From Cytophagaceae bacterium (GTDB taxonomy: Bacteria; Bacteroidota; Bacteroidia; Cytophagales; Flexibacteraceae), in the NCBI GenBank assembly GCA_027485575.1, contig JAIXQU010000045.1, forward strand, positions 1 to 35,688: 35,688 bases of DNA. The letters are read 5' to 3'. The notes beneath the pieces are model-generated. The model searched no databases, was not told the DNA's origin, and saw only the letters and a program-made list of their open reading frames with translations. A program made the translations under genes and the position numbers. How positions within the stretch are numbered: position 1 is the stretch's first letter; each line of letters starts with the position of its first letter. This document shows, one piece after another, positions 3,759 through 23,519 of the stretch.

Positions 3759-6700
3759 ATGCAACTTAGCAAACTGGAAATCAGGGGCTTCAAAAGTTTT
3801 GGAGACAAAATAACCATTCACTTTGACAAAGGAGTGACAGGTATTGTGGGCCCAAACGGTTGCGGAAAATCCAATGTGGTAGATGCCATTCGCTGGGTAC
3901 TTGGGGAACAAAAAACCAGGAATCTGCGCTCAGATAAGATGGAAAACCTCATCTTCAACGGCACAAAGAACCGCAAACCATTACAAATGGCAGAGGTAAG
4001 TCTCAGTTTCCTCAACAATAAAAATATTCTGCCTACGGAGTATACAACGGTAACCATCAGCCGGAGGTATTACAGAGATGGCGAAAGCGAGTATCTTCTC
4101 AATGGGGTAACCTGCAGACTAAAAGACATAACCAGCCTTTTCCTTGACACAGGAATTGGGCCGGATAGTTATGCCATCATCGAACTTAAAATGGTAGACG
4201 ACATCCTTTCTGACCGTGAAAACAGCAGAAGGGCATTGTTGGAAGAAGCAGCTGGCATATCCAAATTTAAAATCCGTAAAAAGGAAACTTTCCGCAAACT
4301 GGAAGACACAGAGGCCGACCTTACCCGTTTGGAGGATGTCCTTTTCGAAATAAGGAAAAATATGAAGGCCCTGGAAAAGCAGGCCAGACAAGCAGAAGAA
4401 TACTACCAGATAAAAGAAGGTTACAAACTGGCAGCCATAGAACATGCCCGTTTCAGCATGGCCTCGAAGGCTGAAATTTTAACTGCGCTTAAAGGCAAAA
4501 CTACTGAATGTCAATCTCTTAGAACCGAGTATTCAGCCAAAATAGCCAGCCAGGAAGCTGAATTGGAGGAGATAAAAGCTAAATTGCTACAGGAGGAAAA
4601 AACCCTTTCCGGAAGACAAAAAACCCTGAATGAATATGCAACCAAAATCAGGGAAATAGAAAGTCAAAAGAAAATTCGGGAAGACAGGCACAAGTTTTAT
4701 ACAGAACGAACAGGAAAACTCAATCTGGAAATCGGACAAATAGCGGAACAGAAAAAACTGATTGAAAAATCCATCCAACAAACCACCAAGGTGAAAAGTC
4801 TGGAAGAAAAACAATTGGAGGAACTAAAGACAGATTTGGAAATCGCCCAGGAAAATCTGGCCATTGCCCGGGAAGAAACAGAAAGGTTAAGGGCACAGCT
4901 TGACATTGAGCAGGAACAGCTGCGCAAAAAACAGCAGGAGTTATACCAATTAGAAAAATCACTGGAATATGCCGAAACACAAAAAGCCGATTTAGAAAAC
5001 GAACTCAAAAAGGCGGTTGTCGCCACAGAGGACCAAACTGTTTTCCTTGAAAATTTTGAAAAAAAATTAAGCTCCATTTCTGAAATGGCCACTGAAAAGT
5101 CGGCCCAGATTATTGAAATGGAAAAAAAAGAAATAGAACTTACTGAGAACATAGCGTACAAAATTCAGGAAGGGGAGGAAATTAAACAAAAACTGGCAGA
5201 TAAACACCGAAAACTGGATGCAAGGTCAAATGAATTGAGCCTGATAAAAGCAATGGTAGAAAATCTTGAAGGCTTTCCAGAGGCTGTTAAGTTTTTAAGA
5301 AAAAATAAATCATGGAGTAAAAAAGCCCCATTAGTTGCTGATATCATTAACATAGAAGAGAAATATAAAATGGCACTGGAATCTGTTCTGGAGCCTTTTT
5401 TGAATCACTATGTGGTACAAACAGAAACTGAAGCCTATCTGGCGATGAAGCTTTTATCAGAAGGGCAGAAAGGAAAAAGCAGTTTTTTGGTACTTGATAA
5501 TTTAAAAAACTTCACAAATAAAAAACAAGAGATACTAGTAGATGCCATTTCAGCAGCAGGGCTTGTAGAATATGACCAGATATACGAAAAATTGGTGACA
5601 TATCTGCTGGATGATGTGTACATAACCGACAAAACCATACCATTCACGGCAGCAGCATCCACCGAAACCCCAATGCTATTTGGAGAAATGGCCTGGGACT
5701 GGGCAGAGCATACCGTAGTTTCTATTTCTGGTGCCATGACCAAACGTAAGTTTAGTCTTTCTGGCGGCTCTACCTCCGTATTGGAAGGCAATAAGATAGG
5801 CAAAGCCATACAAATCAAGAAGTTAGAAACAGAAATAGCTGACTTAAACACCTCTGTTCACAATGAAAAAATAGCCTTGGAAGCAAACCTGGAGGCCATT
5901 ATTCAACTAAGGGAAAGCACGGGTAAGAGTCTGATTGACCACCTGCAAAAGGAGGTAAACCAACTCCGCCAGGAAGAAGCAGCCCTGTCCGCCAGAAAGG
6001 AACAATCTTTGGAGCTACTGAGAAGCTCGGCTGCCCGAAAAGAAGACATCCAACAAAAGATTCTCCAGCTTACGGAATCTTCGGCCCAGCAATTTCCACA
6101 AATGGAAGAAACAAAGTTCCACGTGGAACAGTTGACCAAAAGAATAGAGGAAAACCAAACGAGTTTTAAAATACGCTCTGAGGAAACAACAATGACCTCA
6201 GGAAAATTCAACCAATTGAATATTCAGAACATTCAATTGATGAACAGTATGAAGTCCAGACAACAGGAGGAAGATTTCAGAAAAAAGGAATTAGAACAAC
6301 TAAATGAACGGGAATTTCAAGCAAGCACAGAAGCAGAAACTGTTAAGAAAGAACTTTTAGGCTTAACGGAAATTGACGATTCAACCAATAACGAACTTCC
6401 GGACCTGTACGAAGAAAAACGAGCCATAGAAGAAGGCTTAAACGAATCAGAAAAACTATACTTTGAAACCAGAGGCGGAATTGACATTCGGGAAAAAGAC
6501 ATCCGGGAATTGAACAGAAAGCGTGAACAAGTAGCGGTTCTGATAACCGAATCCCAGGAAGAAATGAACAATGGCCAGAGCCAGCTCATTGCAATCCAGG
6601 AACGCATCAATGTTGAGTTTGAAGTTTTTATAAGTTGGGAAGAAGGTTTGCCAGAACCCAATGCCAAAGAGGAAGAAAGTTTCAGGCAAAAAATGCAGAC

Positions 6701-7328
6701 GATCAAAAATCAACTGGAAAAAATGGGGCCAATCAACCTGATGGCCAGAGAGGCATATCAGGAAATAAAAGAACGACACGACTTTATAGAAGCACAGAAA
6801 AAAGATTTGTTGGATGCTAAAGCATCTCTGGCAAACACAATAACTGAAATAGAAAAAGTTGCCAAAGAGCATTTTTCTGCCACCTTTCAAAAAGTTCAGG
6901 AAAATTTTAAGTTGGTATTTCGTTCTTTGTTTACAGAAGAAGACACCTGTGACTTGGTTTTTCAAGACCCGTCTGCGCCCCTGGAAAGTCCGATAGACAT
7001 AATGGCTCGACCTAAAGGAAAGCGCCCTTTAACCATCAACCAGCTTTCCGGAGGCGAAAAAACGCTGACAGCCATCTCTTTGTTGTTTGCAATTTACCTA
7101 ATTAAACCAGCGCCATTCTGTATATTTGATGAAGCCGATGCACCTTTAGATGATACCAACATAGACAAGTTCAATAAAATCATTAGAAAGTTTTCAAACG
7201 AAAGTCAGTTTATTATTGTTACCCACAACAAAAGAACTATGGCAAGCACAGATGTTATTTATGGAGTGACTATGCCGGAGCAAGGCGTGAGTCGTGTAAT
7301 ACCTGTAGATTTAAGAGAACTAGCCTAA
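3759..7328 (+). CDS. smc: Chromosome segregation protein SMC
   Basis: SMC is the ATPase core of bacterial condensin; with ScpA/ScpB it loops and resolves the newly replicated chromosome. The 1189-residue protein has a Walker A motif GPNGCGKS at 31-38 and a long coiled coil (about 165-500). A hinge domain follows at about 500-670, then the returning coiled coil (about 670-1000). The C-terminal head carries the signature LSGGEK at 1096-1101 and Walker B CIFDEAD at 1121-1127. Length and order are normal for the family. The coding sequence contains a perfect parS-like palindrome at 6116-6129. scpA and scpB are not in the window. Confidence 0.98.
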   Translation: MQLSKLEIRGFKSFGDKITIHFDKGVTGIVGPNGCGKSNVVDAIRWVLGEQKTRNLRSDKMENLIFNGTKNRKPLQMAEVSLSFLNNKNILPTEYTTVTISRRYYRDGESEYLLNGVTCRLKDITSLFLDTGIGPDSYAIIELKMVDDILSDRENSRRALLEEAAGISKFKIRKKETFRKLEDTEADLTRLEDVLFEIRKNMKALEKQARQAEEYYQIKEGYKLAAIEHARFSMASKAEILTALKGKTTECQSLRTEYSAKIASQEAELEEIKAKLLQEEKTLSGRQKTLNEYATKIREIESQKKIREDRHKFYTERTGKLNLEIGQIAEQKKLIEKSIQQTTKVKSLEEKQLEELKTDLEIAQENLAIAREETERLRAQLDIEQEQLRKKQQELYQLEKSLEYAETQKADLENELKKAVVATEDQTVFLENFEKKLSSISEMATEKSAQIIEMEKKEIELTENIAYKIQEGEEIKQKLADKHRKLDARSNELSLIKAMVENLEGFPEAVKFLRKNKSWSKKAPLVADIINIEEKYKMALESVLEPFLNHYVVQTETEAYLAMKLLSEGQKGKSSFLVLDNLKNFTNKKQEILVDAISAAGLVEYDQIYEKLVTYLLDDVYITDKTIPFTAAASTETPMLFGEMAWDWAEHTVVSISGAMTKRKFSLSGGSTSVLEGNKIGKAIQIKKLETEIADLNTSVHNEKIALEANLEAIIQLRESTGKSLIDHLQKEVNQLRQEEAALSARKEQSLELLRSSAARKEDIQQKILQLTESSAQQFPQMEETKFHVEQLTKRIEENQTSFKIRSEETTMTSGKFNQLNIQNIQLMNSMKSRQQEEDFRKKELEQLNEREFQASTEAETVKKELLGLTEIDDSTNNELPDLYEEKRAIEEGLNESEKLYFETRGGIDIREKDIRELNRKREQVAVLITESQEEMNNGQSQLIAIQERINVEFEVFISWEEGLPEPNAKEEESFRQKMQTIKNQLEKMGPINLMAREAYQEIKERHDFIEAQKKDLLDAKASLANTITEIEKVAKEHFSATFQKVQENFKLVFRSLFTEEDTCDLVFQDPSAPLESPIDIMARPKGKRPLTINQLSGGEKTLTAISLLFAIYLIKPAPFCIFDEADAPLDDTNIDKFNKIIRKFSNESQFIIVTHNKRTMASTDVIYGVTMPEQGVSRVIPVDLRELA
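6115..6130. promoter_or_regulatory. parS: parS-like ParB-binding site inside smc
   Basis: AGTTCCACGTGGAACA has a perfect 14-base palindromic core and matches the ParB consensus TGTTNCACGTGNAACA at 15 of 16 positions (first base A). It lies in the second coiled-coil half of smc, encoding Phe-His-Val-Glu. A perfect 14-mer is very unlikely by chance, and a second copy lies 1.26 kb away. parS sites are commonly intragenic and origin-proximal. Confidence 0.8.
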
Positions 7329-7374
7329 CTAAAAATGAAACCCAATAATTCCAAAAAAACAAAAACCGCTCAAA

Positions 7375-7390
7375 CGTTCCACGTGGAACA
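7375..7390. promoter_or_regulatory. parS: parS-like ParB-binding site between smc and mnmG
   Basis: CGTTCCACGTGGAACA carries the same perfect 14-base palindrome (7376-7389) as the copy in smc and matches the parS consensus at 15 of 16 positions (first base C). It occupies the 77-base gap before mnmG, ending 15 bases upstream of its ATG, so bound ParB might also affect mnmG expression. Confidence 0.82.
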
Positions 7391-7405
7391 CCTAGAAACC
7401 AAAAC

Positions 7406-9277
7406 ATGTTTTCAAAATACGATATCATAGTTGCAGGGGCAGGACATGCCGGATGTGAAGCAGCCGCAGCCGCAGCAAACATGGGCTCCAAAGTTCTATT
7501 GGTAACCATGAATATGACTACAATCGGTCAAATGAGTTGCAACCCAGCTATGGGCGGTGTAGCCAAAGGCCAAATTGTAAGAGAAATAGACGCTCTGGGT
7601 GGATTGTCCGGAATCATAACCGACAAAACTACCATACAGTTTAGAATGTTGAACCGCTCTAAAGGTCCGGCAATGTGGAGCCCAAGAGCCCAAAACGACC
7701 GTTGGCGGTTTGCCGAAGAATGGCGTTTGGCATTGGAGAGAATTCCCAATGTTGACTTTCTGCAAGATACCGTTACCGAACTAATTGTAAAAGATGACCG
7801 GGTGACAGGAGTCAAAACCCAATTGGGTTATGAACTTTCAGCCAATGCAGTTGTGTTAACCAATGGAACATTTTTAAATGGCCTGATACATATTGGTGAA
7901 AAACAACTGACAGGTGGCCGAATATCGGAATCATCGGCCACAGGAATAACTGGTCAATTGGTTGAACTTGGCTTTGAAACCGGCCGCATGAAAACAGGAA
8001 CTCCACCAAGAATAGACGGTCGAAGCATGGATTACTCGAAAATGGAAGAACAGGCCGGTGATGAGAATCCTTCCAAGTTTTCATTTTCAAAAGAAACCAG
8101 CGCAATTCAAAACCAACGAAGTTGCTGGATAACTTATACAAACGATAAAGTCCATACCATTTTAGAAAAAGGATTTAGCCAGTCACCCATGTACACAGGG
8201 AGAATCCAAGGCCTTGGTCCAAGATATTGCCCTTCCATTGAAGATAAAATAACACGGTTTGCTGATAAGGACAGACACCAGATTTTTATAGAGCCGGAGG
8301 GATGGAACACTGTAGAAATATACGTGAATGGTTTTTCAACATCTTTGCCCTATGAGGTCCAAACAGAAGCCCTCCGACATATTCCTGGATTGGAGAATGC
8401 AAAAATATTCCGACCTGGATATGCAATCGAATACGACTACTTTCCGCCAACACAACTGAAACCAACCCTTGAAACCTATCTGGTTGAAAACTTATATTTT
8501 GCTGGCCAAATCAACGGGACCACAGGATATGAAGAAGCAGCATGCCAGGGCCTGATGGCAGGAATGAATGCCCATCTGAAAGTGAAAGAAGAAAACCCTT
8601 TTGTCCTCAGTAGATCTGAGGCTTATATAGGTGTACTCATTGATGATTTAATTACAAAAGGCACAGAAGAGCCTTACCGCATGTTCACCTCAAGGGCAGA
8701 ATTTAGAACCTTGCTCAGGCAAAACAATGCCGATTTCAGATTAACTGAAAAAGGAAATAAAGTCGGATTGGCAAGTCAGGAGAGATTGGATGTACTTCGG
8801 GGCAAAGAACAAAAAATTGCTGAAACCCTGGAACTCTGGAAAACTTTAAAACTGCCATTGGAAGAATTAAATCCCTTGTTAGAGACAAAAGGAACACCGC
8901 TGCTTACAGAAAAGATGAGCATTGAAAATCTATTAAAAAGACCGCAACTTGCTGTTACCGATTTCGCTCCATTTTTTGACAAGGTGAATCCCCATGGAGC
9001 AGATTCAGAGGAATTGGAGGAAGCAGAAGTCCTCATTAAATACAAGCCTTACATAGAAAAAGAAAACCAGATTGCCATTAAAATTACAGACAGCGAAAGC
9101 AAAGAACTTCGAAGAAATATTGATTTTAAGGCCATCAAAACTTTATCGAACGAAGCCCGGGAAAAGTTAACCAAGCTAAAACCGAAAACCCTTGGAGAGG
9201 CAAAGAAAATATCAGGCATCTCACAATCAGACCTTTCTATTCTATTACTTTATGCAGTAAATTCCGATGAAAACTGA
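7406..9277 (+). CDS. mnmG: tRNA uridine-5-carboxymethylaminomethyl modification enzyme MnmG (GidA)
   Basis: MnmG, with MnmE, uses FAD, NADH and methylene-tetrahydrofolate to install the carboxymethylaminomethyl group on U34 of certain tRNAs. The 623-residue protein is of normal family length. The FAD-binding motif AGAGHAGCEA is at about 10-19, followed by the MSCNPAMGGVAKG segment. The family signatures GPRYCPSIEDKI (about 271) and GTTGYEEAACQGLMAG (about 371) are present, as is the C-terminal helical MnmE-binding domain. The start ATG is clear. It overlaps the next gene by 11 bases, so the two are translationally coupled. mnmE is not in the window. Confidence 0.97.
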   Translation: MFSKYDIIVAGAGHAGCEAAAAAANMGSKVLLVTMNMTTIGQMSCNPAMGGVAKGQIVREIDALGGLSGIITDKTTIQFRMLNRSKGPAMWSPRAQNDRWRFAEEWRLALERIPNVDFLQDTVTELIVKDDRVTGVKTQLGYELSANAVVLTNGTFLNGLIHIGEKQLTGGRISESSATGITGQLVELGFETGRMKTGTPPRIDGRSMDYSKMEEQAGDENPSKFSFSKETSAIQNQRSCWITYTNDKVHTILEKGFSQSPMYTGRIQGLGPRYCPSIEDKITRFADKDRHQIFIEPEGWNTVEIYVNGFSTSLPYEVQTEALRHIPGLENAKIFRPGYAIEYDYFPPTQLKPTLETYLVENLYFAGQINGTTGYEEAACQGLMAGMNAHLKVKEENPFVLSRSEAYIGVLIDDLITKGTEEPYRMFTSRAEFRTLLRQNNADFRLTEKGNKVGLASQERLDVLRGKEQKIAETLELWKTLKLPLEELNPLLETKGTPLLTEKMSIENLLKRPQLAVTDFAPFFDKVNPHGADSEELEEAEVLIKYKPYIEKENQIAIKITDSESKELRRNIDFKAIKTLSNEAREKLTKLKPKTLGEAKKISGISQSDLSILLLYAVNSDEN

Positions 9278-10154
9278 AAAATTAATTCATTGTCCGTCTT
9301 GCGACTCAGATAAAATAAAACACATTCTGGATATTCCGGATTACTATTTTAGTAAACAGGTTTTTCCAATAGATGAGTGCCAGAATTGTGGGCTTAGATT
9401 TACCCAAAGCCGACCAACAGCAGATGCCATTGGTGAATATTATGATTCAGAAAACTATGCCAGCCACGACTCGGGTAAAAAATCAAGTCTGTTCTTAAAG
9501 GCTTACCAATTGGCCAGAGACTATATGCTGGAACAAAAATTTAAACTTGTACGGCAGTTTAAACCGGAATGGAAACAAGTTTTAGATTACGGAACAGGGG
9601 AGGGGTTTTTTACTGAATTTTTGCAAAAAAAAGGAAAAGAGGCCTTTGGAATAGAACCCTCAGCTGTGGCCAGAAGCAATTTTAAAAATAGAACTGGCAA
9701 CGATTTATATCCCGATATTTCAGCTTTGCCCCCTGGTAAAAGCTTTCAGGTAATCACACTTTGGCATGTTTTGGAGCATATCCATAGCCTGAGGAACACG
9801 ATGGAGGAATTGGTTGAGAGGCTCCAAAGCAAGGGTATTGTTGTTATTGCTGTCCCAAACCAAAAATCTACCGATGTAAAAACCTTTGGCAAAGAATGGG
9901 CAGCGTGGGATGTACCCAGACATTTGTACCATTGGGATGAAAACAGCCTGGAACATTTTATGAAAAGTCTGGGTTTGCAAAGAATTTACACAACACAGCT
10001 ACCACTGGATCCCATATACATCGGAATGATATCCTCAAAATATCAGGAAAAAAGTCCCCTGGAAGGCGTAATAAAAGGCATTAAATCTTATTTCCATGGG
10101 CGGAACAATCCTGCTGAAGGGTCAACGCTTTTGACAATATGGATGAAAAATTAA
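9267..10154 (+). CDS. Class I SAM-dependent methyltransferase with N-terminal zinc ribbon
   Basis: The 295-residue protein starts with a likely zinc-binding domain: Cys9/Cys12 and Cys38/Cys41 in CPSC and CQNC pairs. A Rossmann methyltransferase domain follows, with SAM-binding motif I VLDYGTGEGFF at about 104-114 and the WHVLEHI motif near 165-172. This is the Methyltransf_23-like architecture; substrates in this group are diverse and cannot be assigned here. Its ATG lies inside the end of mnmG (11-base overlap) and its own end overlaps the next small gene by 16 bases. This tight packing suggests one operon, but not necessarily a tRNA substrate. Confidence 0.9.
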   Translation: MKTEKLIHCPSCDSDKIKHILDIPDYYFSKQVFPIDECQNCGLRFTQSRPTADAIGEYYDSENYASHDSGKKSSLFLKAYQLARDYMLEQKFKLVRQFKPEWKQVLDYGTGEGFFTEFLQKKGKEAFGIEPSAVARSNFKNRTGNDLYPDISALPPGKSFQVITLWHVLEHIHSLRNTMEELVERLQSKGIVVIAVPNQKSTDVKTFGKEWAAWDVPRHLYHWDENSLEHFMKSLGLQRIYTTQLPLDPIYIGMISSKYQEKSPLEGVIKGIKSYFHGRNNPAEGSTLLTIWMKN

Positions 10155-10318
10155 TCAGGAAAGACACGAGTCAATTGTGGATAGAAACAGATTCTTTGAG
10201 CCTGAGCAAAAGCAACAATGCATTGCCATCAAGCAAAGGGCAATGGCTAACCGGAGCAGCAATCGTATTGGGAATCAGTGTTTTACTTTTTGTTTTATTC
10301 AACACCAGAAGTAAATAA
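10139..10318 (+). CDS. Small single-pass membrane protein, 59 residues
   Basis: ATG at 10139-10141 opens a 59-codon frame ending in TAA at 10316-10318. The product has a charged and polar N-terminal half (about 1-34) and one hydrophobic helix at about 36-55, ending in NTRSK, so a tail-anchored or single-pass inner-membrane protein is likely. It overlaps the methyltransferase end by 16 bases, and its stop codon shares one base with the ATG of the lipoprotein gene. Filling the gap exactly between two real genes is the main evidence that it is real. No family recognised. Confidence 0.7.
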   Translation: MDEKLIRKDTSQLWIETDSLSLSKSNNALPSSKGQWLTGAAIVLGISVLLFVLFNTRSK

Positions 10319-11808
10319 TGCTTAAAATATTCCTTTTATCCCTTGTCGGCCTGTTGTTATATGGATGTGCAAGCGTTCAGGCCCCAGAAGGGGGTCCACG
10401 AGATACAACTGCACCAAAATTGGTTGCGATTTTCCCATTAAGTGGAACAACCAACTTTAAAGGCAAAAATTTAGTAATGGAATTCAATGAAGATGTGTCA
10501 GAAGACAACACAAAAATTCAGTTCATTTCCCCTTTAACACCTTTAACCGTAACCACAGGAACAAGACGATTAAAAATAAGCCCCGACTCGGGATGGCAAC
10601 CCAATACAACTTATGTGATGAAGCTCCTGAAGAAAATAAAAGATGACCGGGAAGGCAACAACATGAAAGATACCACCATCCTTTTTTCAACAGGTGCAGC
10701 CATAGATACACTTAAAACCAGTTTTACTATTCTTGATAAAAGCGGAAAAGTCAGCCAACAAAAATTTACAGCCTTATTTAACAAGGAAAAAAAGGTGGTC
10801 TTTTCTTCAACGACTGACAGTTTAAGACCTCTGCAAATAAGGGGATTGAGTACAGGAAAATACAATGTGGAGATTTTCAACGATAAAAATGAAAACTACA
10901 AATACGAAGAAGACGATGGTTTATTATTTTTTGATTCTGTAAAGGTGGATTCAAATCTACAGATTAGTGTGACGCCTCTACCTCAAAAATATAAACCAAC
11001 AAAACTTTTTAAACAGCGAAAAGGGGACACAGTTGTCATTGAAGCCAGCCAGTGGATTTTCCCAAACGGAAAGTTCAAAAACAACATCATTGCAGAAAAC
11101 GAAGAACATACCCAATTCTGGCTTTATCCTGTAAAAAACAGTTATTTCCACAGTTTCGCTGATTCATTACAAAATTGCTATCAGGATACCATTGATTTAG
11201 TAAAGATAGATACAAGCAGAACACTGGATTTAATACCCATCAAAAAAACGATAACCCTGGAAAAAGACGGCAAAACTCTTAATCTGAAATTGAAATGGAA
11301 TTGGGCCATTTACCGATATCCAGATTCCTTATTTGTGACACAGGACACCGTTTGGAAACAAATTCCATTTATTACTGGTAACAATCAAATCGTTATTCCT
11401 TTTAAAGAACTGAAACCGGGCAAACTTAAAATGCGCTTTGATACAGTTACTTTTTATAACCTACAGGGTTTCAAAAGGGACTCAATAGACATAAGCAAAG
11501 CCGACATGGAACCAAAAGGAATGGTTTCAGGCTCGATAGAAAACGCTGGTAATAAGACTCTTGTATTAGAAATACTAAACAGTAAAAAAGAAGTCGAAGC
11601 AAGGTCGATTGGAAAAACGTTCAACTATTTGCTAAAACCAGGACGGTACACTTTTCAGATTTTTGACGACCTGGATAAAGATGGATTCTACACTGGTGGA
11701 AACAAAGAAGCCCGACGAAAAGCCGAGCCTCTTTATGTGCATCCCGAACCTGTAGAGCTGAAGCTGGGTTGGGATTTGGAGAATATTGTGTTGAAACCTG
11801 GCTTTTAA
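10318..11808 (+). CDS. Ig-like domain lipoprotein (SbsA-like Ig, Bacteroidota type)
   Basis: The 496-residue protein begins with a lipoprotein signal peptide: basic start, hydrophobic stretch, then lipobox LYGC with the lipidated Cys17. Residues after it include the segment [14 protein letters not shown], characteristic of a widespread Bacteroidota family with an N-terminal SbsA-like Ig domain (Big_5) at about 30-115. The rest is beta-rich, with a [11 protein letters not shown] loop near 460 resembling a calcium-binding or prealbumin-like module. It is probably anchored in the outer membrane or facing the periplasm; function unknown. It is the last gene of the smc-side block and converges on fumC with a 4-base overlap of the two stop codons. 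Confidence 0.88.
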
Positions 11809-13187
11809 ACCATCTCCTCAGGCTTCACCCAGGCGTCAAATTCCTCTGAGGTTACATAACCCAAGGCCATGGCAGATTCCTTTAAAGTTAGGTTTTCTTT
11901 ATGCGCTTTCTTAGCAATCTCCGCTGCTTTATAATAACCAATGTGGGTGTTTAAAGAAGTTACCAACATAAGTGAATTATCAAGGTGTTTTTTGATGAAT
12001 ATATGGTTTGGTTCAATCCCAACTACACAGTGTTTCCGGAATGAATCACAGGCATCTGCAATCAGATTGGCCGACATAAGGAAGTTAAAAATAATAACCG
12101 GTTTAAATACATTCAATTCAAAATGACCGTTCATGCCACCCACCGATATTGCTGCATCGTTCCCAATAACCTGAGCACAAACCATAGTAAGAGCCTCAGA
12201 TTGAGTAGGATTAACTTTCCCTGGCATAATAGACGATCCCGGTTCGTTTTCAGGAATTAAGATTTCACCAAAACCAGAACGTGGTCCGGACGATAACAAA
12301 CGAATGTCATTGGCAATTTTCATCAACGACACAGCAAGTGTTTTTAATGCACCTGAACCAAAAACCATGGCGTCGTGTGCAGCCAGAGATTCGAACTTAT
12401 TTGGTGCAGTTACAAACTGAAAACCAGTAAGTTCAGAAATCTTTTTAGCAACCAGAACATCATATCCTTTTGGAGCATTCAAACCAGTTCCAACGGCAGT
12501 GCCTCCCAAAGCCAATTCAGACAAATGCGATAAGGATTGATCAATATGCTTTAACCCATGGGTTAACTGGGCCGCATAACCAGAAAATTCCTGTCCCAAT
12601 GTCAAAGGGGTAGCATCCATTAAATGCGTTCGTCCTATTTTAACTACTGATTTAAAAGCCTCTGCCTTAGAAGAAATCTCATCCCTTAACTCAGAAACCC
12701 GGGGTAAAACCTTTTCTTTCAATATTTTAACAGCGGCAATGCTCATGGCCGTCGGAAAAGTATCGTTAGAAGACTGAGATTTATTTACATCGTCATTTGG
12801 ATGCAAGACTTTCTTATCATCCAATAAATTGCCACCTTGCAACACATGTCCACGATTTGCAATTACCTCATTTAAATTCATATTAGACTGTGTACCAGAG
12901 CCTGTTTGCCAAACAACCAATGGAAATTGGTCATCCAGTTTACCAGTCAAAATTTCATCACAGACCAGGCCAATTAAATCTGATTTCTCTTTTGATAAAA
13001 CCCCTAAATCGCAATTTGCCTGAGCAGCTGCTTTCTTCAAATACGCAAAAGCATATACAATTTCCTTTGGCATGGTATGCCCGCCAATCTGAAAATTTTC
13101 CCTTGACCGCTGGGTTTGTGCTCCCCAATACGCCTGAGCTGGTACAGTTACCTCACCCATCGTATCTTTCTCTATCCTATATTCCAT
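11805..13187 (-). CDS. fumC: Class II fumarate hydratase
   Basis: FumC reversibly hydrates fumarate to L-malate in the TCA cycle, without an iron-sulfur cluster. The 460-residue protein has normal length and the superfamily signature [11 protein letters not shown] at about 313-323, which carries the catalytic serine. The [20 protein letters not shown] segment near 183-202 holds the conserved histidine. Early [10 protein letters not shown] is the fumarase substrate-binding loop, which separates it from aspartase or argininosuccinate lyase with good confidence. Its start borders the DnaA-box region, so its promoter lies within the putative origin. Confidence 0.96.
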
Positions 13188-13530
13188 TGATTTTTAATAA
13201 CTTAACTTTTATGAAAATCTATATAAATTTGTTGACAAGTGTAAGACAGAATGTGGATAAAGTAAAAGCTATCCACAAAAAGTTATTTGACGATCAAAGT
13301 CTATCCACAAAGCCGGACTTATTCACAATTCAAAATAAATTGATGCACAATTTTAGAGCTAAAAGTTTAGAGTTAAAAGTTTAGAGTTAAAACTATGATT
13401 ATGAAGCGTAAAAAGAATAGCCAGTTGAAGTCTTACTTTAATTATCCACAAAACTTATCCACATATCAACACCCTTAGCAATAAGTACAATAAATAATTA
13501 AATATTTGTAATTCTATTATTGATGTGTGT
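13188..13530. other. oriC: Candidate chromosomal replication origin (oriC): DnaA-box cluster
   Basis: A non-coding gap between the leftward fumC and the rightward TPR gene. Perfect TTATCCACA boxes lie at 13252-13260 (- strand), 13442-13450 and 13455-13463. One-mismatch boxes lie at 13269-13277 (CTATCCACA), 13301-13309 (CTATCCACA) and 13319-13327 (TTATTCACA), with another (TGTGGAAAA) at 13535-13543 just inside the TPR gene. Between the two box groups sit three tandem AT-rich 14-mers (13351-13392). After the last perfect box comes an AT-rich tract (about 13481-13520) that could be the unwinding element. By eye I find no other perfect box in the window. Proximity of smc and parS-like sites supports the call; dnaA itself is absent, which is common for Bacteroidota. 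Confidence 0.75.
13351..13392. repeat. Three tandem 14-base repeats within the candidate oriC
   Basis: TTTTAGAGCTAAAA (13351-13364), GTTTAGAGTTAAAA (13365-13378) and GTTTAGAGTTAAAA (13379-13392) lie head to tail. The last two are identical; the first differs at two positions and has 6-base inverted arms. They sit between the left and right DnaA-box groups, where iterons or the DNA-unwinding element would be expected. Confidence 0.85.
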
Positions 13531-15387
13531 ATGATGTGGAAAACTGAATTTCAAGTAAAAAGGCGGAACTCAAAAATCAAAAGTGGTTTTCTGACTGGTT
13601 TTCTGATTTTGTGTTTCGTTACAATTTCATTCGGCCAAACAAAGACTGAGAAAAAAGATCTGGCGGATGAGTATTTTAAAAGAGAAAATTATCAGAAAGC
13701 CCTGGAAAATTATGAGGCTTTAGCTGGTGATGAAAATTGGGATGCCCAGATTTTTAACAAGTATATCCTCTCGCTTGACAAGGTAAAACCGGCGAAAACA
13801 GAAGCGGTAATTAAAAAATATTTAAAGAAGTATCCCAATGAAATGGTCTATCAGACTTTTCAGTTTACTTATTTGAAAAACACAAAAAAAGACGAAAAGG
13901 AACTTGAAAAATTTACCAACGGAAAATTGATTCCCTGGTTTTTGAAAACAAGTGAAAGAACGAAAGCTGGCTATATGTTTTTCCTGGAGAATGCTTCCCC
14001 TGCTTATGCAGGACAGTTATTGGATGCCGGAATAAAAACATTTGGTCTTTCAGTACTTTGGAAGGAAATGTTTCAGATTCAGTTGTTGGAAAAGAAATAT
14101 GCGGATTTGGCAATTACAATTGTAAAACTCCTGGAGCAAAGAGTGATGGAAGAGGTCGAGCTGGAAACCTTTTTGCAGGAACCGATTGGGCAGGATGAAC
14201 TATCAAAAAAATTGCAGATTGAACTATTAAAGCAAATTCAAACCAAGCCAAATGAAGCAGTTTATCCTTCATTTCTGGCCTGGATTTACATGCAAAAAAA
14301 GGATTTTGAAGGTGCCCTCATTCAATACAAGGCATTGGATATGCTTGAAAACACGGGAGGAACGCGGGTGTATCAATTGGGCGAATTTGCCATTAACAGT
14401 GATTTGAACAGGGTGGCCATCAAATGTTTTGAGTTTGTGATCCAAAGTTTTCCTGCAAGTCAATATAGATTTCTTGCCCAGCAAAAGTTGGTTCAGCTTA
14501 GGGAAGATGTGGTTAAAAATACCTATCCAGTTAAAAAACAAGATGTAAAAGAACTCATTCAGGAATATAACAATCTGGCAAACAGCCAATATTTAAATGT
14601 GTACGACCTCACCATGAAAGTCGCTGAACTGTGTGGAAAATATCTCAATAAACCAGATTCAGCCATTGTCATTTTAGAGGAAAGTTTTAAAACCCGACGT
14701 TGGCCGTTCAATCTTCAGAACAAAGCCAAAATAATGTTGGGTGATATGTACATTTTAAAAGATGAACCTTGGGAAGCAAGTTTGTTGTACGGCCAGGTTG
14801 AAAAAGATGAGGCCGAAAGTTTGGTTGGATATGAGGCCAAACTGAAAAACGCCAAGGTTTTTTATTTCAAAGGAGAATTTGAACTTTGCCAGGAACAGCT
14901 TGATGTTTTGAAACAAGGCACCAGCCGCGATATAAGCAACGATGCCATTGAATTGGGACTACTTCTTCAGGACCTGCTGGCCGAAGACACCACGGGCTTC
15001 TTCCTGTCTAAATTCGCGGATATTGACTTGCTTATCTTTCAGGGAAATTACGCAGCCTCCATCGACCAGATTGAAAAGCTCACTTTTACCATTTCCAACC
15101 CCGTGGTTTTGGAAAAACTGAAATTCCGCTTGTACAAAAATTTTGCCGCCACCCGCCAGCTGGACAAAGCCCTCGAGCAGCTTGACCAGATATATAAAAC
15201 CAAGGCCTCAGAACTGTATCTCGATGATGCTCTGTTTTTTAGCGGCGTTATCTACTCTGACAATCTGAAAGACAAAGAAAAAGCGATGGGCTATTTTCTG
15301 TCCTTGATAAAAGAAATTCCGGGCTCCGTATTTGTGGCCGAGGCAAGAAAACGATTGAGGATTTTGAGGGGAGATGCCGTGAATTGA
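13531..15387 (+). CDS. Secreted or periplasmic TPR-repeat protein
   Basis: About 618 residues. I prefer the ATG at 13531 (or 13534) over an in-frame GTG at 13525. The N-terminus has many basic residues, then a hydrophobic stretch ending near SFGQ, consistent with a Sec signal peptide. The mature protein is helical with tetratricopeptide-like repeats. The first (about ADEYFKRENYQKALENYEAL) is clear, and others follow near DFEGALIQYKALD, LDKALEQLDQIY and the C-terminal KDKEKAMGYFLSL. TPR proteins act as protein-protein scaffolds; Bacteroidota encode many of this kind with no assigned role. The gene starts at the edge of the putative origin, and one weak DnaA box overlaps its first codons. Confidence 0.9.
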   Translation: MMWKTEFQVKRRNSKIKSGFLTGFLILCFVTISFGQTKTEKKDLADEYFKRENYQKALENYEALAGDENWDAQIFNKYILSLDKVKPAKTEAVIKKYLKKYPNEMVYQTFQFTYLKNTKKDEKELEKFTNGKLIPWFLKTSERTKAGYMFFLENASPAYAGQLLDAGIKTFGLSVLWKEMFQIQLLEKKYADLAITIVKLLEQRVMEEVELETFLQEPIGQDELSKKLQIELLKQIQTKPNEAVYPSFLAWIYMQKKDFEGALIQYKALDMLENTGGTRVYQLGEFAINSDLNRVAIKCFEFVIQSFPASQYRFLAQQKLVQLREDVVKNTYPVKKQDVKELIQEYNNLANSQYLNVYDLTMKVAELCGKYLNKPDSAIVILEESFKTRRWPFNLQNKAKIMLGDMYILKDEPWEASLLYGQVEKDEAESLVGYEAKLKNAKVFYFKGEFELCQEQLDVLKQGTSRDISNDAIELGLLLQDLLAEDTTGFFLSKFADIDLLIFQGNYAASIDQIEKLTFTISNPVVLEKLKFRLYKNFAATRQLDKALEQLDQIYKTKASELYLDDALFFSGVIYSDNLKDKEKAMGYFLSLIKEIPGSVFVAEARKRLRILRGDAVN

Positions 15388-22562: not shown

Positions 22563-23102
22563 ATGATTAAGGCATTTGACCAATACCAGATGATGAGAAA
22601 TCATCAATTGATATTTGGATATAGGGGGACTTTAAATAATGAATTGATTACATCTATTCTAAACTTGTCGGAGACAAAATTGAAAGATTTGAAAACTCCG
22701 TTTAAGAAGAAAAAATCGATAATCAATATTTTAATAGAGTGCCTTCAAAACATTCTTTATCATTCAGAAACATTCTCTGAGGAGTTTTTTTCCGGACATC
22801 ATTGTATTTTTTTAATTGGACGACGGGAAGCTGAATTTTTTATACAGATAGGAAACTATATAGCTCCCAGGCAAATACCAGATCTGAAATCCAAATTGGA
22901 ATATGTCAATTCACTGGAAAAAGAACAGGTACACAGTCTTTACCTCGAAATCCTTGACAAAGGGGAAATTTCAAATAAAGGCGGTGCAGGACTTGGAATT
23001 TTAAGAGTTCTTAAGGATTCTGGAAGCAAATTGGATTTCAATTTTCAGGAAATAGAAGAAAACAGGTCTTTTTTTAGTATGGAAATTAAGGTTAAAGATT
23101 AA
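22563..23102 (+). CDS. siaB: SiaB-family protein kinase (GHKL-like)
   Basis: In Pseudomonas, SiaB is a kinase that phosphorylates SiaC on a threonine, and SiaA is the opposing phosphatase. This 179-residue protein has a histidine-kinase-like ATP-binding fold: an N-box-like helix with NILIECLQNILYHSE (55-69), with Glu59 and Asn63 in the right places, and a G-box GGAGLGILRV (140-149). It lacks any dimerisation or phospho-accepting histidine domain, as in SiaB and anti-sigma-type kinases. The next gene, 33 bases downstream, encodes the SiaC-like substrate, so the pair is a kinase-substrate module. The assignment rests on fold motifs and this context. Confidence 0.85.
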   Translation: MIKAFDQYQMMRNHQLIFGYRGTLNNELITSILNLSETKLKDLKTPFKKKKSIINILIECLQNILYHSETFSEEFFSGHHCIFLIGRREAEFFIQIGNYIAPRQIPDLKSKLEYVNSLEKEQVHSLYLEILDKGEISNKGGAGLGILRVLKDSGSKLDFNFQEIEENRSFFSMEIKVKD

Positions 23103-23135
23103 TAGATTTTTTAATGACCACAAATTTGTAATTAA

Positions 23136-23519
23136 ATGGAACGTATCGAAATAGAGCCCACATCAACAACTCCAAAAATCAGCTTTCTGCCACAGGATGG
23201 ATATTTTGAAATATCAGGTAAATCTTTGCCTGAGAATTCTTTTGAGTTCTATAAGCCGTTGATCGACTACATGGAAGCCTATGCTGAAAGTCCTGTTCCA
23301 AATACCTCTTTAGTATTTAAGCTGCAGTATTTTAATACCAGTTCAACATCGCATTTTTTGAGGATGATTAAAAAGTTTGAAAAAATTGGAGCGGATGGTA
23401 AAATAGCGGTTGTTCGTTGGTTTTACGATGAAGACGATGAGGATATGAAAGAGGCTGGAGAAGATTTTAAAGTTCTGTCCAAGTTACCAATAGAAATAAT
23501 TGGCAGTCACGTAGATTGA
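23136..23519 (+). CDS. siaC: SiaC-family regulatory phosphoprotein (DUF1987)
   Basis: A 127-residue single-domain protein. The key segment LQYFNTSSTSHFL (63-75) matches the phosphorylation loop of SiaC; Thr68 falls at the same number as the Thr reported to be phosphorylated in Pseudomonas SiaC. There SiaC activates a diguanylate cyclase (SiaD) when unphosphorylated. No SiaD-like GGDEF gene or SiaA-like phosphatase gene is seen within the window, so the output here must be different or located elsewhere. It lies 33 bases after siaB; the next gene is convergent, 7 bases away. Confidence 0.88.
   Translation: MERIEIEPTSTTPKISFLPQDGYFEISGKSLPENSFEFYKPLIDYMEAYAESPVPNTSLVFKLQYFNTSSTSHFLRMIKKFEKIGADGKIAVVRWFYDEDDEDMKEAGEDFKVLSKLPIEIIGSHVD

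Follow-up and report, generated by a model that had tools for sequence, protein, structure and literature searches.

Predicted replication origin upstream of a TPR gene

The gap between fumC and a gene for a TPR-repeat protein, at positions 13188-13530 of the window, is very probably the chromosomal replication origin (oriC) of this Cytophagaceae bacterium, of the ordinary DnaA type and located far from dnaA. The window, the whole stretch of 35,688 nucleotides that was analyzed, is contig C35 of a 3.9-Mb assembly of 198 contigs. The features of the gap and of its neighborhood were as follows:

7406-9277 (+): mnmG (gidA); five of the family's six genera have it linked to the gap
10318-11808 (+): gene for a Big_5-domain protein, which directly borders the candidate origin gap in genera g3-g6, where fumC is missing
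11805-13187 (-): fumC, class II fumarate hydratase, adjoining the gap only in the window's genus
13252-13260 (-): perfect DnaA box, part of the block TGTGGATAA, kept in five of five genomes of the genus
13269-13277 (+): one-mismatch DnaA box CTATCCACA, kept in G001 and G003, there too as a one-mismatch box
13301-13309 (+): one-mismatch DnaA box CTATCCACA, its spacing common only to G001
13319-13327 (+): one-mismatch DnaA box TTATTCACA, common only to G001
13352-13392 (no strand): AT-rich 14-mer TTTAGAGTTAAAAG in 2.9 near-perfect tandem copies, present in the window's genome only
13442-13450 (+): perfect DnaA box, invariant across the genus
13455-13463 (+): perfect DnaA box, 13 bp past the box at 13442, invariant across the genus
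13464-13530 (+): short C-rich spacer followed by a conserved AT-rich tract; putative DUE with a layout like that of a basal unwinding system (BUS), a role assigned from published work (PMC8287927)
13531-15387 (+): gene for a TPR-repeat protein, with GTG 13525 as a possible start; conserved neighbor of the box cluster across the order
13535-13543 (-): one-mismatch DnaA box TTTTCCACA, overlying the start of the TPR gene

DnaA boxes and the AT-rich tract

Perfect DnaA boxes (TTATCCACA) occurred three times in the whole window, at 13252 (-), 13442 (+), and 13455 (+), and nowhere else, as the first-pass annotation had judged by eye. The expected number for the window was 0.43, and three or more perfect boxes were reached in none of 100 shuffles. 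With three one-mismatch boxes added, the cluster counted six within 212 bp, recovered at the same positions between 13252 and 13463 that had been annotated previously. Dinucleotide-preserving shuffling of the entire window, repeated 300 times, gave at most four boxes in a cluster, and that once. The DnaA-box cluster of the window is real and beyond chance. A further variant box, at 13535, was present as annotated, but it was not clearly non-coding: with a start at either ATG 13531 or GTG 13525, the opening codons of the TPR gene would run through it.

Alignment of the gap from the five genomes of the genus revealed two kept blocks, with diverged sequence between them. The left block was TGTGGATAA, and the right block comprised TTATCCACA-N4-TTATCCACA, a C-rich spacer, and the AT-rich tract. 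In the four sister species a one-mismatch box, ATATCCACA, was found 8 bp beyond the equivalent of the 13455 box, a position at which the window has ATATCAACA. The gap as a whole (13188-13530) was 73% A+T, and positions 13470-13529 reached 77%, within the top 2.5% of the 60-bp stretches of the window; the AT-rich tract reported at first pass was thus borne out, and it is kept in the genus. The 14-mer repeat at 13352-13392, which recalls the 13-mers of E. coli, is a possible helper unwinding repeat. It was absent from the sister species and was not kept in the genus alignment of the gap, so it cannot be essential genus-wide.

In the proposed mechanism, DnaA would bind the outward pair 13252/13269 and the tandem pair 13442/13455, and a DnaA-ATP filament would grow rightward from the tandem pair, across the C-rich spacer and into the AT-rich DNA at 13464-13530. 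This tract would then melt, and DnaB helicase would be loaded in both directions. Published BUS rules describe tandem boxes and a spacer, followed by trinucleotides whose middle base is fixed (PMC8287927); the form applied here was a DnaA box, a spacer of at most 16 bp, and at least three contiguous DnaA-trios with a conserved middle base. Three such trios were found in three of the four sister species (G002, G003, and G004; CTA-ATA-ATA or CTG-ATA-ATA). Fewer were found in G001 (CTA-ACA-ATA, two trios) and in the window (TTA-GCA-ATA), and the broken canonical DnaA-trio in the window counts against the gap at 13188-13530 as oriC.

Gene neighborhood and conservation in the family and order

The candidate origin had been described as next to fumC, away from dnaA, and flanked by genes pointing away from it on both sides. 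Its distance from dnaA was upheld, but fumC proved incidental, as only the window's genus has it at the gap. The two immediate neighbors do point away from the gap, but the SMC, mnmG, methyltransferase, and Big_5 genes (3759-11808) are all on the plus strand and point towards it. As a marker of the origin fumC was rejected; a scan of named genomes based on it yielded mostly distant fumC copies without boxes. In gene order, fumC is a bystander and the conserved partner is the TPR gene, joined by mnmG within most of the family. Elsewhere in the window (22563-23519), a DUF6272 gene was followed by a gene for a SiaC-family regulatory phosphoprotein.

In each of the six genera examined in the family, the orthologous gap on the upstream side of the TPR gene was dense in boxes. 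The gene order mnmG-(methyltransferase)-Big5-gap-TPR was box-dense in g3 (G006 and G007), g4, g5, and g6. In these four genera fumC was absent from the gap, which contained 6 to 12 boxes with at most one mismatch per 500 bp (12 in g4, nine in g5, and six in g6); the g6 gap had seven perfect boxes in about 540 bp. In g2 (G005) mnmG had moved away and was without boxes, and eight boxes still lay upstream of the TPR gene.

Across the order, which gene content and relatives suggest is Cytophagales, the 30 best-matching TPR homologues from 79 sampled genomes were surveyed, these being best protein matches and not a random draw. Within 1.3 kb upstream, 21 of the 30 TPR loci had 7 to 27 boxes, where shuffled sequence would give 0.2 to 0.7. 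The box-rich loci came from seven families: f1, f4, f5, f10, f14, f17, and f18. Loci of f9, f12, f15, and f20, plus one each of f4 and f14, had 0 to 4 boxes upstream of the TPR gene. Among these loci, the constant neighbor of the box cluster is the TPR gene and neither fumC nor mnmG. No publication in the partial body of literature searched gives a TPR gene as an origin neighbor. Some families (L274, L279, L284, L283, L286, and L293) also had 8-22 boxes inside the TPR gene and just downstream of it.

The complete genome G252, of family f19, had its GC-skew minimum close to another box cluster, one that adjoins a ClC channel gene. The TPR link is therefore not universal in the order; either the origin moved in f19 or the link never existed there. 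The element on the ClC side consisted of three to four boxes with near-constant spacing (about 20, 9-10, and 67-77 bp), was flanked opposite the channel gene by MtgA or thioredoxin, and was found in L131, L132, L120-L130 (family f19), L133 (G252), and L083 (Shiella aurantiaca). Its position near the G252 skew minimum makes it probably the origin of f19. Another three perfect boxes in G252 (L134:9917-10021) lay between the dnaB helicase and Mur-ligase genes, about 3.7 Mb from the ClC-side cluster. In family f2 (L111-L118), about 1 kb of sequence held 7-13 perfect boxes together with 13-18 one-mismatch boxes. These very dense clusters are likely the origins of f2; in G030 and G045 they were not adjacent to the TPR gene.

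GC skew

A change of skew sign was seen on the 897-kb contig C3 of G010, a distant member of the family (genus g6), from 22 samples of 16-20 kb. Skew was negative (mean -0.026; one sample +0.004) to about 686 kb and positive thereafter (+0.021). The fitted change point lay at 680 kb; bootstrapping gave a median of 682 kb and a 95% range of 445-693 kb, wide on one side, and none of 1000 permutations matched the fit. The boxes of the TPR gap were at about 696.7 kb, within about 10-16 kb of the sign change, and dnaA was at 73.6 kb, inside the negative arm. On a 272-kb contig of G008 (g4), the cumulative minimum was at 248.3 kb and the boxes at 251.7-254 kb, 3-6 kb apart, on a contig that ends about 20 kb beyond; dnaA of this genome lies away from the TPR gap.

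Within the window's genus, the skew to the left and right of the gap was -0.007/+0.034 in the window, -0.033/+0.017 in G003, and -0.011/+0.015 in G001, of the right sign and weak. No sharp skew minimum at the gap was found within the window itself. In the complete f5 genome G014, where the TPR gap contained 13 boxes, 20 skew samples gave no switch at the gap (p = 0.57), so the order-wide origin claim rests on box clusters and not on skew. The orthologous boxes in six genera and in other families, with the sign change in G010, support the original reading of the gap as oriC.

A competing box cluster and alternative readings

When every contig was searched for pairs of perfect boxes, two places only were returned, the window and C27:16271-16310. 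The second belongs to cluster B (C27:16252-16310; L001 about 1482-1540), whose four perfect boxes span 59 bp. They lie in a convergent gap that separates dipX (D-Ala-D-Ala-dipeptidase-like) from a BtuF-like gene, both names coming from sequence reading and not from a family search. The window cluster is thus not the sole or the best box cluster of the genome, although uniqueness is usual, not strictly defining, for a DnaA-dependent oriC. Both clusters were present in five of five genomes of the genus.

Cluster B could itself be the true oriC, beside dnaA in the ancestral gene order of the genus, with the window cluster as a former origin or accessory DnaA site. Its four closely packed perfect boxes favor this, as does their conservation throughout the genus with nearly fixed spacing. 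In G001, G002, and G003 it also lies about 2 kb from dnaA, which by the usual rule of thumb would make it the origin. In the window's genome, however, cluster B stays with dipX-btuF and dnaA is on another contig, an arrangement that also led us to drop cluster B as a dnaA promoter; promoter control by cluster B is in any case unlikely in a convergent gap. Further against it as oriC, the BtuF loci of g3, g4, and g5 contained no perfect box, the genus alignment showed no conserved AT-rich unwinding tract beside it, and the flanking skew was inconsistent (+0.030/-0.014 in the window's genome and -0.015/+0.021 in G001). Boxes at the TPR gap in the other genera, set beside the missing counterpart of cluster B, mark the fumC-TPR gap as the conserved cluster of the family and cluster B as a feature of the genus. 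The comparison across genera and the skew switch in G010 both favor the window over cluster B, and we consider cluster B as oriC improbable. The first-pass annotation had named a better box cluster elsewhere in the genome as a finding that would refute the origin; cluster B, denser in perfect boxes, came close to doing so, yet it is confined to the genus and lacks an AT tract, so the window cluster was preferred. From its sequence setting, cluster B is less likely to be an origin than a site at which DnaA is bound for regulation or titration, and we infer that it would most simply be a DnaA sink or a datA/DARS-like site.

Two other readings were weighed. The boxes in the window might serve only the transcriptional control of fumC and of the TPR gene, with DnaA acting as a transcription factor unrelated to initiation. 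The gap is divergent and so holds both promoters, and DnaA boxes do occur upstream of other genes, such as nrdA in G005. Against this, the boxes persist in genera without fumC at the gap, the counts of 7 to 27 boxes are higher than those of promoter sites, and skew switches at the gap in G010; we hold this reading to be very improbable. Slighter still is the chance that both clusters act as origins, or that the gap is the origin in only part of the family. Two conserved clusters in one genus and the unclear skew signal of G014 speak for such an arrangement, but no second skew minimum appeared in the data tested and cluster B has no unwinding tract.

Implications

Order-wide linkage to the TPR gene and the existence of cluster B are the points of interest. 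A tentative history, which we regard as doubtful, is that the origin stayed with one TPR gene across this order of Bacteroidota while its other neighbors changed, and that the genus gained cluster B as a DnaA sink or a datA/DARS-like nucleotide switch. If the origin is attached to the TPR gene and cluster B is a sink, the TPR protein may itself act in initiation control or origin positioning. The candidate provides a sequence-level origin for a lineage known mostly from draft genomes, and the gap upstream of the TPR gene is a marker that, for many related families in which dnaA is a misleading guide, may locate the origin in draft assemblies. With a second conserved, predicted DnaA-binding element, origin control in Bacteroidota would become testable with a defined pair of sites.

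Comparison with known systems

It has already been stated that oriC commonly lies far from dnaA in Bacteroidetes (PMC4755523), and origins linked to gidA are classical, the origin of Y. pestis having been reported between gidA and mioC (PMC10225481). New here is the fumC-TPR gap as a putative oriC locus. Like the predicted oriC of Prevotella intermedia and other Bacteroidetes, its boxes are far from dnaA; those of the published predictions are at a skew transition (PMC4755523), and P. intermedia probably belongs to a different order of the phylum. Similarity to the oriC of E. coli and other enterobacteria, in the gidA-mioC gap, lies in a box cluster and an AT-rich tract in a gene gap near gidA (mnmG) and not beside dnaA. 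It differs in that no mioC homologue was present among the annotated neighbors, the linkage to mnmG holds within the family only, and the constant neighbor in the order is the TPR gene.

The BUS of the Bacillus subtilis oriC is similar in its tandem DnaA boxes, its 11-bp spacer with a C-rich end, and the AT-rich DNA that follows (PMC8287927). It differs from the window, where the required middle base is present in two of the first three trinucleotides (TTA-GCA-ATA). Two perfect boxes just upstream of the ribonucleotide reductase large-subunit gene of G005 (L144:10001-10020) resemble the DnaA-regulated nrd promoter of E. coli. For cluster B, there are precedents in E. coli for groups of DnaA boxes that are not origins (PMC4585315; PMC12371093). 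Cluster B resembles datA, DARS, and the titration sites near the E. coli origin as a short, conserved, and apparently non-origin group of DnaA boxes (PMC4585315; PMC12371093), and it differs from datA and DARS in its convergent gap, its lack of known partner sites, and its restriction to one genus.
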